The notes under the pieces: model-generated
What the model was told of the DNA's origin: nothing
Databases searched by the model: none
What the model saw: only the letters and a program-made list of their open reading frames with translations
Source of the DNA: Aeromonas lacus
GTDB taxonomy: Bacteria; Pseudomonadota; Gammaproteobacteria; Enterobacterales; Aeromonadaceae
Assembly (NCBI RefSeq): GCF_000764665.1
Contig: NZ_JRGM01000132.1
Location: forward strand, 1-64,000
DNA: 64,000 bases
Direction of reading: 5' to 3'
Part shown: positions 35,162 through 40,920 of the stretch, piece by piece
Layout: each line of letters starts with the position of its first letter
How positions within the stretch are numbered: position 1 is the first letter of the stretch
Program-made: the position numbers and the translations under genes

Positions 35162-35193
35162 GCCGCCAAGCCTAGCTTACATTGAGGTTTTGC

Positions 35194-37431
35194 ATGTCAT
35201 CGGAATCATTACACCTGGGTATGGCGGGGAGTCGAAAACGCCGCATCAAGGACAAATTGGCCAAGTACGGCGTCACCACGGGTGGGGCGCTGGTGCTGGT
35301 GGCGCTACTGCTTATCTTCTTTTACCTGCTCTACGTGGTGAAGCCCATCTTCAATGGCGCCACGATGGAGCCGACCGCCTCGTTTACCCTGCCGACAAGC
35401 GGCAAGACCGCCTGGCTCGGGGTAGAAGAGCAGAACGAGATCGGTTATCGCTTCAGCGACAACGGACAGGTCAACTTCTTCGCCGTGCAGGGCGATGGCA
35501 AGATCAAGGTCGGTCAATCCCTCGGTCAGGCTGAGGTGGCCGGTGACGTCACTGCCGTGGCGCCGCCCGCGCCGGGTCAGAAGCTGATTGCCTATGGTTT
35601 TGCCGACGGCAAGGCGCAAGTGGTACAGCCCTCCTTCAAGGTTTCCTATCCCAACGATGTGCGCGTCATTGAGCCAAGCCTCCAGTACCCCTTCGGCGAA
35701 GAGCCGGTGGTAGTGGATCCCGAGGGCAAGGCGCTCAAGACCATGGTGTTTGAAGCCACCAAGGACAAGATGGCCGCTGCCGCCGTGACCGAAGATGGTC
35801 GCGGCGTGATGACGGTGATGAGCGGTGAGGAGAACTTCCTCTCCGGCGAGATCGAGTGGAGTGCCCAGAACTACACCATTCCCTCCCTGCCGCGCCATGT
35901 GGATCAGATGCTGCTCACCCCCAACCTGCGCATCCTGTTCGTGCGCGAGGGCAACCGCCTCTCTGTCTACGACATCCAGAACCTGAGCGATATCTCGGTA
36001 CGCAACGTGCTGGAGATCAACGCCCCGAATGCCAACGTGACCCGGGTCGAGCTGCTCTCCGGCGCCTCTTCCCTGCTGGTGGGCAACGACAATGGCGTTA
36101 TCTCCCAGTGGTTTGAAGTGGCAAAGGATGGCAAACGCCAGTTCACTCAGATCCGTGACTTCAAGGGTGATGGCGCCGTGGCGCAGCTCACCCCGGAGCA
36201 CTTTCGCAAGGGCTTTATCAGTGCCGACAAGGATGGCACCGTCAGCTTCTTCCACGCCACCGGCGAGACCAAGCTGCTGAGCGAGCATGTCGATGGCGGC
36301 GCCTTCTCTGCGCTGGCCATTTCGCCGCGCCACAACCTGCTGCTGACCCAGCAGGGCGATGCGTTCAAGCTGTTTGCGGTGGAGAACGAGCACCCCGAGG
36401 TGACCTGGTCTGCCCTGTGGCAACAGGTGTGGTACGAAGGGTATCCGGAGCCCCAGTATGTGTGGCAATCCACCTCCGCCAGCAACGACTTTGAAGCCAA
36501 GCTGAGCCTGGTGCCGCTGGTATTCGGTACCTTGAAAGCCTCCTTCTATGCCATGGTGTTTGCGGTGCCGCTCGGTGTTGCGGGCGCCATCTACACCGCC
36601 TACTTCATGTCGGCGGGGCTGCGCAAATATGTCAAACCGACCGTCGAGATCATGGCGGCCCTGCCGACCGTTATCCTCGGCTTCCTGGCAGGCCTCTGGC
36701 TGGCGCCCATCATAGAGGGCTCCCTGCCCGGCGTGGTGTTGCTGCTTATTCTGCTGCCAGCGGGAATGCTGCTGACCGCGCTGGTGTGGAACTACCTGCC
36801 GGAGCGCAGCCGCACCTGGCTGCCGGAGGGGTGGCACGCCATCCTGCTGATCCCGGTGCTGCTCTTCATCGGTTGGGGAGCGTTCGCGCTGAGCCCGCTC
36901 ATCGAGAATGCCTTTATGCACGGTGATTCGCGCATCTGGCTGACCCACGACATGGGCATCAAGTTCGACCAGCGCAACTCGCTGGTGGTCGGCATCGCCA
37001 TGGGCTTTGCAGTCATTCCGACCATCTTCTCCATCGCCGAAGACGCGGTCTTCTCGGTACCCAAGCACCTGACCCAGGGCTCGCTGGCCCTCGGTGCCAC
37101 GCCGTGGCAGACCCTGAGCCGGGTGGTGATCCTCACCGCCAGCCCGGGCATCTTCTCGGCGGTGATGATGGGCCTTGGCCGCGCCGTGGGCGAGACCATG
37201 ATCGTGCTGATGGCCACCGGCAACACCCCCATCATGGACTTCTCCATGTTCCAGGGGTTGCGTACCCTCGCCGCCAACATTGCGGTAGAGATGCCGGAGT
37301 CGGAAGTGGGCAGCTCCCACTATCGGGTGCTGTTCCTCGCAGCCTTCGTCCTGTTCGTGTTCACCTTCTTGTTCAACACCCTGGCCGAGTTTATCCGTCA
37401 GCGGTTGCGTGAAAAATACAGCTCTCTGTAA
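35194..37431 (+). CDS. pstC: PstC-type phosphate ABC transporter permease with large extracytoplasmic domain
   Basis: A 745-residue permease, more than twice the length of E. coli PstC. After one membrane helix (residues about 29-50) comes a soluble region of roughly 380 residues, probably periplasmic and with repeat-like beta structure, then the permease block from about residue 435 (LVPLVFGTLKASFYAMVFAV) with the EAA-type loop QGSLALGATPWQTLSRVVI. It forms the channel with PstA. No pstS gene is in the window. The Pho box upstream supports phosphate control. ATG 35194 after GAGG is used. Confidence 0.93.
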   Translation: MSSESLHLGMAGSRKRRIKDKLAKYGVTTGGALVLVALLLIFFYLLYVVKPIFNGATMEPTASFTLPTSGKTAWLGVEEQNEIGYRFSDNGQVNFFAVQGDGKIKVGQSLGQAEVAGDVTAVAPPAPGQKLIAYGFADGKAQVVQPSFKVSYPNDVRVIEPSLQYPFGEEPVVVDPEGKALKTMVFEATKDKMAAAAVTEDGRGVMTVMSGEENFLSGEIEWSAQNYTIPSLPRHVDQMLLTPNLRILFVREGNRLSVYDIQNLSDISVRNVLEINAPNANVTRVELLSGASSLLVGNDNGVISQWFEVAKDGKRQFTQIRDFKGDGAVAQLTPEHFRKGFISADKDGTVSFFHATGETKLLSEHVDGGAFSALAISPRHNLLLTQQGDAFKLFAVENEHPEVTWSALWQQVWYEGYPEPQYVWQSTSASNDFEAKLSLVPLVFGTLKASFYAMVFAVPLGVAGAIYTAYFMSAGLRKYVKPTVEIMAALPTVILGFLAGLWLAPIIEGSLPGVVLLLILLPAGMLLTALVWNYLPERSRTWLPEGWHAILLIPVLLFIGWGAFALSPLIENAFMHGDSRIWLTHDMGIKFDQRNSLVVGIAMGFAVIPTIFSIAEDAVFSVPKHLTQGSLALGATPWQTLSRVVILTASPGIFSAVMMGLGRAVGETMIVLMATGNTPIMDFSMFQGLRTLAANIAVEMPESEVGSSHYRVLFLAAFVLFVFTFLFNTLAEFIRQRLREKYSSL

Positions 37432-37441
37432 GGACCAAGGA

Positions 37442-39097
37442 ATGACAATGGGTAAGTGGTTTAAATCAGGGGCCCCGTGGATCTGGATGACCGGCGGCGC
37501 CGTCAGCCTGAGTCTGGTCGCGGTACTGGGGCTGTTGCTGCTCATCGGCTGGCGTGGTCTGGTCTACTTCTGGCCTCACCCCATCTATGAGTGGCAGCTG
37601 GAAGATGCGAGCGGCAACAAGAGCGTGCTGATCGGTGAAATCAACGATCGCGAGCTGGTGCCGGTGGAGCGCCTGCGCGCCGCAGGCCTGCCGCTCAAGG
37701 GTGAGGAGCGCGAGCTGCTGACCCGCTATCTGGTCAAGACCGGCAACCGCGAGTTTGTCGATCTGGACTTCCGCTGGGTGCTGGAGACCGACATCAAGTC
37801 CCAGAGCCAGCCGGTTGAGCTCGCCATGATTGAGCGCGCCACCAACGGCAACTTCTACGGCTACATCAGCTCGGTCAAAGAGGATGGGCGCGAGATCACC
37901 ACGGATCTGCACGCCGCTCTGCAGCGGGTGCTGGCGCGGGCCAATGGCCTCTCCGAACAGGCTAACGATCTGCAAAAAGGGGACATCGGCAGCATCAACT
38001 ATCAGCTGGAGCGGCTGCGCCTCAAAGAGCGCAAGGCCGAGCTTGAGAATAACCTGACCGATCAGCTCAAAGCCCAGCTGGCGAGCGAGCGTCAGGCTCT
38101 CAACGATCGCTATCAGGTGCTGGAGAAGGAGCTCTTCTCCCTGCGCAGTCAGGCCGATCGCGACAGCATCACCGTCAAGGATATGCGTGGCGAGCTGGTG
38201 ACCATGCCGATGTCCAAGGTACTGGATGTGGTGTGGCCCAACGACATGAGTCTATTGGCCAAGGTAGGTTACTGGTTCCACCAGATCGGCAAGTTTGTCT
38301 CCGACGATCCCCGTGAAGCCAACACCGAGGGCGGGGTATTCCCGGCCATCTTCGGCACCGTCTTCATGGTGTTCCTGATGGCTATCATCGTGACCCCGCT
38401 CGGCGTGATTGCGGCGGTCTACCTGCACGAGTATGCCGGCAAGAACAGCCTGACCAAGCTTATCCGCATCGCAGTGATCAACTTGGCGGGCGTGCCCTCC
38501 ATCGTTTACGGCGTGTTTGGTCTGGGTTTCTTCGTCTATACCCTGGGGGGCAGCATCGACCGCCTCTTCTATCCGGAAGCGCTGCCGAGCCCGACCTTTG
38601 GCTCACCCGGCGTTATCTGGTCGGCGCTTACCCTGGCCATCCTGACCCTGCCGGTGGTGATCGTCTCCACCGAAGAGGGGCTGGCGCGGATCCCGAGCAC
38701 CATCCGTCAGGGCTCGTTGGCACTGGGTGCCACCCAGGCCGAGACCCTGTGGCGTATCGTGCTGCCGATGGCGAGCCCGGCCATCATGACCGGCCTTATT
38801 CTGGCGATTGCCCGTGCGGCCGGTGAAGTGGCACCGCTGATGTTGGTGGGGGTGGTGAAACTGGCACCGACCCTGCCGATGGATGGCAACTTCCCGTATC
38901 TGCATGTGGAGCGCAAGTTCATGCACCTGGGCTTCCACATCTATGACGTCGGCTTCCAGAGCCCCAACGTCGAGGCGGCGCGCCCTCTGGTCTACGCCAC
39001 CTCTTTCCTGCTGGTGACGGTGATCGTCGGCCTCAACCTGACGGCTATCGGTATTCGCAACCACCTGCGCGAGAAATTCCGGTCGCTGGAACATTGA
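37442..39097 (+). CDS. pstA: PstA-type phosphate ABC transporter permease with enlarged N-terminal region
   Basis: A 551-residue permease. One N-terminal helix (residues about 15-36) is followed by about 230 residues, partly coiled coil (KERKAELENNLTDQLKAQL), probably outside the membrane, and then the permease block from about residue 293 with the EAA-type loop IRQGSLALGATQAETLWRIVLPMASP. It pairs with the equally enlarged PstC. The start lies 10 bases after pstC; ATG 37442 or 37448 are both possible with AAGGACCAAGGA. Confidence 0.93.
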   Translation: MTMGKWFKSGAPWIWMTGGAVSLSLVAVLGLLLLIGWRGLVYFWPHPIYEWQLEDASGNKSVLIGEINDRELVPVERLRAAGLPLKGEERELLTRYLVKTGNREFVDLDFRWVLETDIKSQSQPVELAMIERATNGNFYGYISSVKEDGREITTDLHAALQRVLARANGLSEQANDLQKGDIGSINYQLERLRLKERKAELENNLTDQLKAQLASERQALNDRYQVLEKELFSLRSQADRDSITVKDMRGELVTMPMSKVLDVVWPNDMSLLAKVGYWFHQIGKFVSDDPREANTEGGVFPAIFGTVFMVFLMAIIVTPLGVIAAVYLHEYAGKNSLTKLIRIAVINLAGVPSIVYGVFGLGFFVYTLGGSIDRLFYPEALPSPTFGSPGVIWSALTLAILTLPVVIVSTEEGLARIPSTIRQGSLALGATQAETLWRIVLPMASPAIMTGLILAIARAAGEVAPLMLVGVVKLAPTLPMDGNFPYLHVERKFMHLGFHIYDVGFQSPNVEAARPLVYATSFLLVTVIVGLNLTAIGIRNHLREKFRSLEH

Positions 39098-39206: not shown

Positions 39207-40025
39207 ATGATCAACGTAACGACCGCAGCGACCCAACACACCGCGACCGACCTGCTCAACCTGAGCCCGGAGCAGACCGCGCTGGAGGTGAAGGATCTCA
39301 ACCTGTACTACGGCAGCAAACAGGCGCTGTTCAACGTCAACATGAAGATCCCCAAAGGTCAGGTAACCGCCTTTATCGGCCCCTCCGGCTGCGGTAAATC
39401 GACTCTGCTGCGCTGCATCAACCGGATGAACGATCTGGTGGAAATTTGCCGCATCGACGGCGAGATCCAGCTGCACGGTCAAAACATCTATGACAAGAGC
39501 GTCGATGTCTCCGCCCTGCGCCGCCGGGTGGGCATGGTGTTCCAGCGCCCCAACCCCTTCCCCAAGTCCATCTACGAGAACGTGGTCTACGGCCTGCGTC
39601 TGCAGGGGATCAACGATCGCCGCACCCTGGACGATGCCGCCGAGCGCTCTTTGCGCGGCGCGGCGCTGTGGGATGAGGTGAAGGATCGTCTGCACGACAA
39701 CGCCTTCGGTCTTTCCGGTGGTCAGCAGCAGCGTCTGGTGATTGCCCGTGCCATCGCCATCGAGCCGGAAGTGCTGCTGCTCGATGAACCTACCTCGGCG
39801 CTTGACCCGATTTCCACCCTCACCATCGAGGAGTTGATCAACGAGCTCAAGAGCCAGTTCACCGTGGTGATCGTGACCCACAACATGCAGCAGGCGGCGC
39901 GGGTGTCGGATCAGACCGCCTTCATGTACATGGGCGAGCTTATCGAGTACTCGGATACCAACACCATCTTCACCACCCCGGCCAAGAAGAAGACCGAAGA
40001 CTACATCACCGGTCGCTATGGTTAA
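39207..40025 (+). CDS. pstB: PstB, phosphate ABC transporter ATPase
   Basis: A 272-residue ATPase that powers phosphate import. Walker [10 protein letters not shown] (residues about 57-65), signature LSGGQQQR, Walker [13 protein letters not shown] and the switch His in VTHNMQQA are all intact; [14 protein letters not shown] is typical of PstB. It follows pstA in the operon; TTGAGGTAACAG precedes ATG 39207. Confidence 0.98.
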
Positions 40026-40037
40026 GGAGAGGAGAGG

Positions 40038-40079
40038 ATGAACCACCACAAACAGATTGGCAGTCAATTCAACGGCTAA
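40038..40079 (+). CDS. Upstream mini-ORF resembling the phoU start
   Basis: ATG 40038 follows the very strong ribosome site AAGGAGAGGAGAGG, 12 bases after pstB, and encodes MNHHKQIGSQFNG before TAA. The second Met of PhoU starts [13 protein letters not shown]: 7 of 13 residues and 28 of 39 bases agree. The mini-ORF is in the same frame as phoU (81 bases between the two aligned ATG codons). It may be a relic of a start-region duplication or a leader peptide. Confidence 0.4.
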   Translation: MNHHKQIGSQFNG

Positions 40080-40109
40080 GGCATAATCGGAGCATCAAGG
40101 ATTATTTGT

Positions 40110-40820
40110 ATGGACAATATGAACCTCAATAAACATATCTCCGGTCAGTTCAATGCCGAGCTCGAGAGTGTGCGCAACCAGGTGCTGGTGATGGGCGGCA
40201 TGGTGGAGCAGCAGCTCACCGACGCCATCGCGGCGATCCACGATCAGGATCTGGAGGCGGCGCGCAAAATCGTGGCCAACGACCACAAGGTCAACGCCAT
40301 GGAAGTGGCGATCGACGAGGAGTGCACCCGCATCATCGCCAAGCGCCAGCCGACCGCCTCCGACCTGCGACTGGTGATGGCCATCATCAAGACCATCACC
40401 GATCTGGAGCGCATTGGCGATGTGGCGGACAAGATCGCCCGCATGCTGACCGACAACGCCAACAAGCCGCAGCCGCCGCTGGTGTCGCTGGAGAACATGG
40501 GCCGCCGTACCATCAAGATGCTGCACGACGTGCTCGATGCCTTCGCCCGCATGGATCTGGATGCAGCGCTGGCGGTCTACAAGGAAGATGACAAGGTGGA
40601 TCGGGAGTACGAGTCCATCATCCGCGAGCTGATGACCTACATGATGGAAGACCCGCGCACCATACCGCAGGTGCTCAACGTCCTGTGGGCGGCGCGGGCC
40701 ATCGAGCGGGTGGGCGATCGCTGCCAGCACATCTGCGAGTACATCGTCTACTACGTCAAGGGCAAGGATGTGCGCCACACCAAGGCGGACGATCTGGGCA
40801 CCCTGCTGGGCAAGGGCTAA
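40110..40820 (+). CDS. phoU: PhoU, phosphate signalling regulator
   Basis: A 236-residue protein of two PhoU helical-bundle domains (residues about 20-110 and 120-215). Metal-binding E/D-containing motifs appear, for example [14 protein letters not shown] and [15 protein letters not shown]. PhoU links the Pst transporter to the PhoR kinase so that the Pho regulon is off at high phosphate. It is the last gene of pstCAB-phoU and is followed by a terminator. AAGGATT lies before ATG 40110; an alternative ATG is at 40119. Confidence 0.97.
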
Positions 40821-40833
40821 ACAGAAAGTGAAT

Positions 40834-40859
40834 AAAAAGGCGCGTCAGGCGCCTTTTTT
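40834..40859 (+). terminator. Rho-independent terminator after phoU
   Basis: AAAAAGGCGC and GCGCCTTTTTT form a hairpin with a long T-tail 13 bases after phoU. Confidence 0.92.
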
Positions 40860-40920
40860 GTTGCATAACTGGTCGGAGTAAGATAAAGCCCCCAACTGGC
40901 TGTTTTCTGATAGAATACTC

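Follow-up and report, generated by a model that had tools for sequence, protein, structure and literature searches.

The short open reading frame (mini-ORF) that separates pstB from phoU in Aeromonas lacus is almost certainly, as comparison with related genomes indicates, a decayed tandem copy of the junction between the pstB stop and the phoU start, and in most of the Aeromonas genomes examined phoU is preceded by at least one degenerate copy of its own start. The encoded peptide is not under purifying selection. As the position of the stop is kept and the sequence that follows it is conserved, termination on the mini-ORF, and not its peptide, may be the working part. We tentatively propose a translated relay, in which a terminating ribosome would open the phoU start, and give this model a little less than an even chance.

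Results

The pstB-phoU junction

All positions refer to the window, i.e. the whole stretch of 64,000 nucleotides that was analysed, and the features of the junction are listed in Table 1. That pstB and phoU share one transcript is assumed from the gene order. As an earlier sequence-only reading of this DNA had noted, the mini-ORF directly follows pstB; in the lineage of the window it begins 12 nt after the pstB stop. Its codons are ATG-AAC-CAC-CAC-AAA-CAG-ATT-GGC-AGT-CAA-TTC-AAC-GGC-TAA, and the distance from its ATG (40038) to Met4 of phoU (40119) is 81 bases.

Table 1. Features of the pstB-phoU junction in the window
Feature	Positions	Strand	Remarks
pstB	39207..40025	+	NCBIfam TIGR00972, E 2.7e-127
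Mini-ORF ribosome site AAGGAGAGGAGAGG	40024..40037	+	overlaps the pstB stop; predicted anti-SD duplex -9.2 kcal/mol
Mini-ORF MNHHKQIGSQFNG*	40038..40079	+	13 codons; almost certainly a tandem copy of the start of phoU that has been truncated
Mini-ORF stop	40077..40079	+	30 nt 5' of the phoU ATG; with the preceding Gly, a very probable copy of the pstB last codon and stop
Conserved arm GGCATAATCGGAG	40080..40092	+	pairing possible with phoU codons 10-16
phoU ribosome site AAGGA	40097..40101	+	in the predicted stem's loop; anti-SD duplex predicted at -5.2 kcal/mol
phoU, 236 aa	40110..40820	+	NCBIfam NF008332, E 1.3e-129
Second arm CTCCGGTCAGTTCAATGCC	40139..40157	+	inside phoU codons 10-16

Two further claims of the earlier reading, namely that the mini-ORF is in frame with phoU and that its ribosome site is better than that of phoU itself, are correct for the window, where only the TAA of the mini-ORF lies in between and the predicted anti-SD duplex is the stronger one, but neither can be generalised to the genus. 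Among 30 genomes with a corresponding ORF the frame of phoU is kept in 25 and left in 5, and the mini-ORF site is predicted to bind the anti-SD more strongly than the phoU site in 18 and more weakly in 8. The in-frame relation is incidental, and an in-frame link or read-through into phoU is rejected since the frame is kept in just 25/30 genomes; likewise, a very strong mini-ORF ribosome site is not general in the genus.

Upstream of the junction, PstC (35182-37431, 749 aa) and PstA (37409-39097, 562 aa) each have a large N-terminal region outside their best NCBIfam-matched stretch (residues 520-741 and 294-554, respectively).

Origin of the mini-ORF

Aligned to phoU from Met4, the mini-ORF agrees at 7 of 13 residues and 28 of 39 bases, exactly as reported earlier. 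This similarity exceeds chance: 28/39 is the top score of an upstream mini-ORF against the start of its own gene among 398 long ORFs, 371 of them with some upstream mini-ORF, from the window and 400 kb of the relative G016 (97% identical to the window over the junction), and the next score is 23/39. Moreover, A. allosaccharophila and A. rivipollensis carry a full unit of exactly 81 nt, which opens with the Gly codon and the stop of pstB and aligns to their phoU start without gaps, 66 of 81 positions being identical (alignment score 117, with shuffled maxima of 58 and 49 in the two relatives). In the unit alignments the left border of the duplicated unit is the Gly-stop end of pstB, GGY TAA. 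Since full units start with the pstB Gly and stop, the Gly-TAA of the mini-ORF is very probably a copy of pstB's own end, and since they measure 81 nt in the relatives, the 81-base spacing in the window corresponds to the unit length. About 27 nt of the 5' side of the unit are missing in the window lineage (54 vs 81 nt), and therefore the pstB stop and its AAGGAG adjoin the mini-ORF ATG. The proposal, put forward from the window alone, of a tandem duplication of the phoU start with subsequent truncation is thus borne out by the full unit in relatives and by arrays of up to three copies; ungapped similarity beyond chance goes along with shared unit borders, outgroups lack the copy and copy number varies within the clade.

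Short tandem repeats and slippage duplications in bacterial genomes consist of head-to-tail copies, and their arrays grow and shrink. The Aeromonas unit resembles them in both respects, but unlike ordinary slippage repeats it spans a stop, a ribosome site and a start, i.e. a full copy is a ready-made mini-cistron. Among the papers found for Aeromonas together with phoU none, judged by title and the opening of the abstract, gives an account of this element.

Copy number across Aeromonas

The pstB-phoU junction was found in 37/37 Aeromonas genomes (one genome per species), and a search with the unit core, which also matched 22 of 1850 shuffled gaps, counted no copy in 6, one in 26, two in 4 and three in 1 of them. 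A. tecta has, by eye, an apparent extra truncated second copy outside this count. The history of copy number takes 8 changes on the pstB+phoU tree, several nodes of which have low support. All three root genomes are without a copy and have a gap of 31-32 nt with a partly similar short block; our reading is that the unit was probably gained once after the root split and lost at least twice (rivuli clade, cavernicola), an alternative being a possible loss of the copy in the root clade.

The second and third copies of G020 are identical at 40 of 42 positions, and the first unit of G004 (L183) and the A. finlandensis unit (L012) are identical at 41 of 42, the species being distant on the tree. Copies therefore seem to arise and move, and the latter near-identity suggests that a short region was exchanged between species. 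G010 has two unit types, one each of which is kept by its relatives G018/G023 and G022.

Codon usage of the mini-ORF

The earlier reading had also considered a leader peptide and had suggested searching the junctions of other Aeromonas genomes for synonymous-biased changes. The comparison speaks against the peptide. In 29 of the 31 copy-bearing genomes, the two frameshifted ones being dropped, changes in the mini-ORF distribute over codon positions 1, 2 and 3 as 29:35:17 on the species tree and as 17:22:14 on the unit's own tree, i.e. they fall mostly on positions 1 and 2, and phoU codons 17-236 show 53:24:579 (28 genomes, a genome with truncated phoU being dropped as well). Alleles one step apart differ by 2 synonymous vs 6 non-synonymous changes. 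Moreover, the ORF is frameshifted in two genomes (G017 and G036) and absent or unrecognisable in six, with no recognisable copy in G006, G024 and G019 and none in the three root genomes. A leader peptide under selection is rejected on the codon-position counts, and for the peptide the outcome that the earlier reading had named as its refutation is what the comparison shows.

A sequence-sensing leader peptide, which would stall ribosomes on a signal, is thus largely refuted by the comparison and very improbable. The good ribosome site and the location of a short ORF ahead of a regulator gene would suit it, but the peptide changes freely, the frame is broken in G017 and G036, copy number runs from 0 to 3, and neither the conserved peptide with synonymous-biased changes nor the alternative, covarying hairpins overlapping the ORF that mark an attenuator-type leader were found. 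The candidate attenuator stem 1:2, formed by the 3' half of the mini-ORF and the block behind it, was rejected: none of its 11 pairs shows changes in both partners, its score is equalled or exceeded by 241 of 500 shuffles, and only 4 pairs remain in the consensus fold, at -3.1 kcal/mol (26 of 27 distinct alignment rows, leaving out G016, which differs by one base outside the stem).

Retention of an ORF that ends close to phoU

An ATG-initiated ORF with its stop 29-31 nt before phoU is present in 30 genomes (30/31 with the unit), in G036 via a start in another frame. A bridging ORF, defined, after the data had been seen, by an ATG, at least 8 codons and an end within 32 nt of phoU, occurs in 34/34 genomes with a gap above 40 nt (7.5 expected by shuffling), and in 32/34 a ribosome site is predicted for it as well, at -4 kcal/mol or below (3.2 expected); the bridging ORF of cavernicola has no predicted ribosome site. 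Common descent accounts for most of this retention. The informative cases are the five genomes with a frameshifted or lost copy, cavernicola among them, which still have a bridging ORF at single-genome chances of 0.12-0.40. In a neutral simulation that ignores insertions and deletions, the probability of retention in at least 29 of 34 genomes was 0.33, 0.18 and 0.013 at 1.3, 1.7 and 2.5 changes per site, and the observed rate of the mini-ORF is 1.5 changes per site on its own tree and 2.25 on the species tree. As a sign of selection on the ORF, its retention is suggestive only.

A conserved block and the start of phoU

Across 31 genomes, the 30-nt block from the mini-ORF stop to the phoU ATG shows 26 changes over 31 alignment columns, compared to 81 changes in 36 columns for the mini-ORF. 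Pairing is possible between the first 13 nt of this block, immediately 3' of the stop, and phoU codons 10-16, and the predicted stem would bracket the phoU ribosome site and ATG. Ten of 12 named stem pairs are formed in 31/31 copy-bearing genomes and the other two in 24 and 30; covariation was not seen among these 31 genomes, in which the pairs hardly vary. The third positions of phoU codons 11-16 are unchanged across 30 genomes (mean for six codons, 17.2 changes), and six-codon windows with zero changes number 1/168 in phoU and 1/227 in pstB (2/395). Third-position changes amount to 10 in phoU codons 2-9 and, in an earlier count, to 9 in codons 2-16 as a whole; the codon-by-codon look at the phoU start was made after the pairing was found. 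In 60 phoU genes of other genera codons 11-16 change at near the usual rate (66 vs 84), and all six Aeromonas genomes without a copy have changes in both the block and the stretch of codons 11-16. These comparisons support a nucleotide-level constraint at phoU codons 11-16 that would be particular to Aeromonas. Another stretch with 0 third-position changes in 30 Aeromonas genomes is pstB codons 39-44 (39321-39338).

The difference in pairing between genomes with and without a copy varies with the boundaries chosen for the arm. When the slices are narrow, the pairing ranks at 0.019 or lower among other pstB/phoU windows in 29/31 copy-bearing genomes, the two remaining ones having been cut one base off (duplex -14.4 when recomputed), and the six genomes without a copy give duplexes of -5.0 to -10.5. 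When they are wider and uniform, the copy-bearing genomes have duplexes between -12.2 and -14.5 kcal/mol and the six others between -7.2 and -13.3, e.g. -13.3 in G027 (-12.2 with another wide cut), -12.0 in rivuli and -11.8 in G029; of the 31 copy-bearing genomes, 5 or 3 then have ranks up to 0.02, and 15 or 12 have ranks up to 0.05. A pairing exclusive to copy-bearing genomes, at first taken as clear, is weakened by these wider slices, and about two independent losses and one gain underlie the association between the stem and the copy.

In energy, the folding of the region is unremarkable (mean z of -0.53; +0.99, +0.45 and -0.40 as z values for folds of the window sequence). In partition-function calculations the modelled cost of opening the phoU start with the copy falls from 7.9 to 4.0 kcal/mol when a ribosome is placed at the mini-ORF stop and stays at 7.9 kcal/mol when it is placed 30 nt upstream; genomes without a copy have opening costs of 6.5 and 5.8 kcal/mol. 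The modelled gain is 3.8 vs 2.5 for shuffled arms (median fraction 0.13), with small values in G007 (0.3), fluvialis (0.9) and G012 (1.2). Inside full upstream units, arm-to-start pairing lay below 0.05 of shuffles in 0 of 14 cases, the lowest value being 0.06.

Discussion

Comparison of the genomes points strongly to a tandem duplication of an 81-nt piece in the ancestor of most Aeromonas. The copied piece began with the last codon and stop of pstB, took in the ribosome site of phoU and ended near phoU codon 15, and the array later grew and shrank, between 0 and 3 copies. The stop 30 nt before the phoU ATG lies at about the distance of the pstB stop (31-32 nt) in the copy-free root genomes, which this duplication may have preserved. 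We suggest that the copy adjoining phoU acts as a translational relay: a ribosome that leaves pstB, or that binds the mini-ORF site, would translate 13-25 codons and stop just 5' of the arm GGCAUAAUCGGAG, thereby blocking its pairing with phoU codons 10-16; with the arm kept unpaired, the phoU ribosome site and start codon would be exposed, and PhoU output would be tied to translation of the operon, the peptide itself being irrelevant. In this form, as a possible effect of ribosome termination, the earlier idea that the mini-ORF influences phoU translation survives, and the role of the peptide is dropped. Our confidence in the relay, formerly an even chance, was lowered to slightly below that by the weaker pairing contrast in wider slices. 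The same weakening made us still more sceptical of an extended reading, now improbable to us, in which one duplication across stop, ribosome site and start builds the relay at a stroke and Aeromonas tunes PhoU dosage via 0-3 of the 81-nt units, with a co-evolving stem over the phoU start.

It is quite conceivable, if on balance doubtful, that the mini-ORF is a neutral relic, i.e. that slippage made tandem copies which drift and recombine, that the mini-ORF has no role and that ribosomes on it are noise. Such a relic agrees with codon patterns that fit no peptide constraint, with a rate of 2.25 changes per site near the third-position rate of phoU (2.63 per codon), with 0-3 copies and 8 changes on the tree, with frameshift or loss of the mini-ORF in several lineages, with a simulation of retention that does not decide against neutrality and with a pairing contrast that varies with the slice. 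It is at odds with the stop 29-31 nt before phoU behind an upstream ATG in 30/31 unit-bearing genomes, with the bridging ORF in all five frameshifted or lost cases, although this was a post hoc observation, and with the synonymous freeze of codons 11-16 in Aeromonas but not in the genes of other genera. This freeze, together with the low number of changes in the block relative to the mini-ORF and the 10 of 12 pairs formed in 31/31 genomes, would also be compatible with an RNA or DNA element (a structure, a binding site or a determinant of RNA stability) made up of the 30-nt block and phoU codons 10-16, next to which the mini-ORF would be passive. We consider such an element unlikely: the block starts exactly at the mini-ORF stop, block and codons 11-16 are changed in the six copy-free genomes, a search of 39700-40500 for known RNA families gave no hit in Rfam at E values up to 1, and 39800-40920 has no sigma-70-like site on its + strand.

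Among studied systems, mgtQ, an 8-codon ORF between mgtC and mgtB of Salmonella (PMC8092293), comes closest, and the mini-ORF shares with it the arrangement of a short ORF, with its ribosome site, that sits between neighbouring genes of an operon. Translation of mgtQ releases the ribosome site of the downstream gene from a stem (PMC8092293), which for the mini-ORF is proposed only; mgtQ requires particular acidic codons, whereas the codons of the mini-ORF vary freely; and the alternative stem-loops of mgtQ were shown by mutation, whereas here stem 1:2 failed and the opening of a stem is a prediction. The parts of PMC8092293 consulted do not describe mgtQ as a copy of the start of the downstream gene, which the mini-ORF almost certainly is.

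Translational coupling in operons, whether through termination and re-initiation or through a ribosome that opens a structure (PMC5972666, PMC7538156), likewise involves a stop shortly upstream of a start that has a ribosome site of its own, and an upstream ribosome that may help the downstream start. A difference is that the mini-cistron here would bridge a gap that was widened by the duplication itself. Intercistronic distances in E. coli are below 30 nt in more than 75% of cases and post-termination ribosomes move more than 40 nt, according to a review (PMC5972666). That re-initiation is a major route of coupling has been disputed (PMC7538156), and for this reason we favour the opening step within the relay.

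If the relay holds, it suggests a route to a regulatory short ORF, in that a gene start is duplicated together with the preceding stop and yields a mini-cistron that keeps the old stop-to-start spacing. The 37 species with 0, 1, 2 or 3 copies form a series that may be regarded as a natural experiment on translational coupling in a phosphate-sensing operon.

Junctions outside the genus

phoU is present in 71/75 genomes of the family. A copy was found in 0/33 junctions of other Aeromonadaceae, the gaps of which are too short (33 of the 34 non-Aeromonas genomes with phoU; the set excludes the remaining genome, in which the match was 48%, as well as the second matches of two genomes). Nor was a copy of the phoU start found in 67 junctions (L083-L149) taken from the 80 top-ranking loci of a larger collection, 4 of these junctions being on the same contigs as in the Aeromonadaceae set; their pstB-phoU gaps range from 8 to 169 nt, and the 11 gaps of at least 54 nt were read by eye. 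Among these long gaps outside Aeromonas an ATG bridge occurs in 3/11 and is absent from 8/11. In five Enterobacterales (L105, L109, L114, L115 and L146) the pstB-phoU junction contains inserts of more than 100 nt that are not copies of the phoU start; some of them are visibly palindromic and REP/BIME-like.
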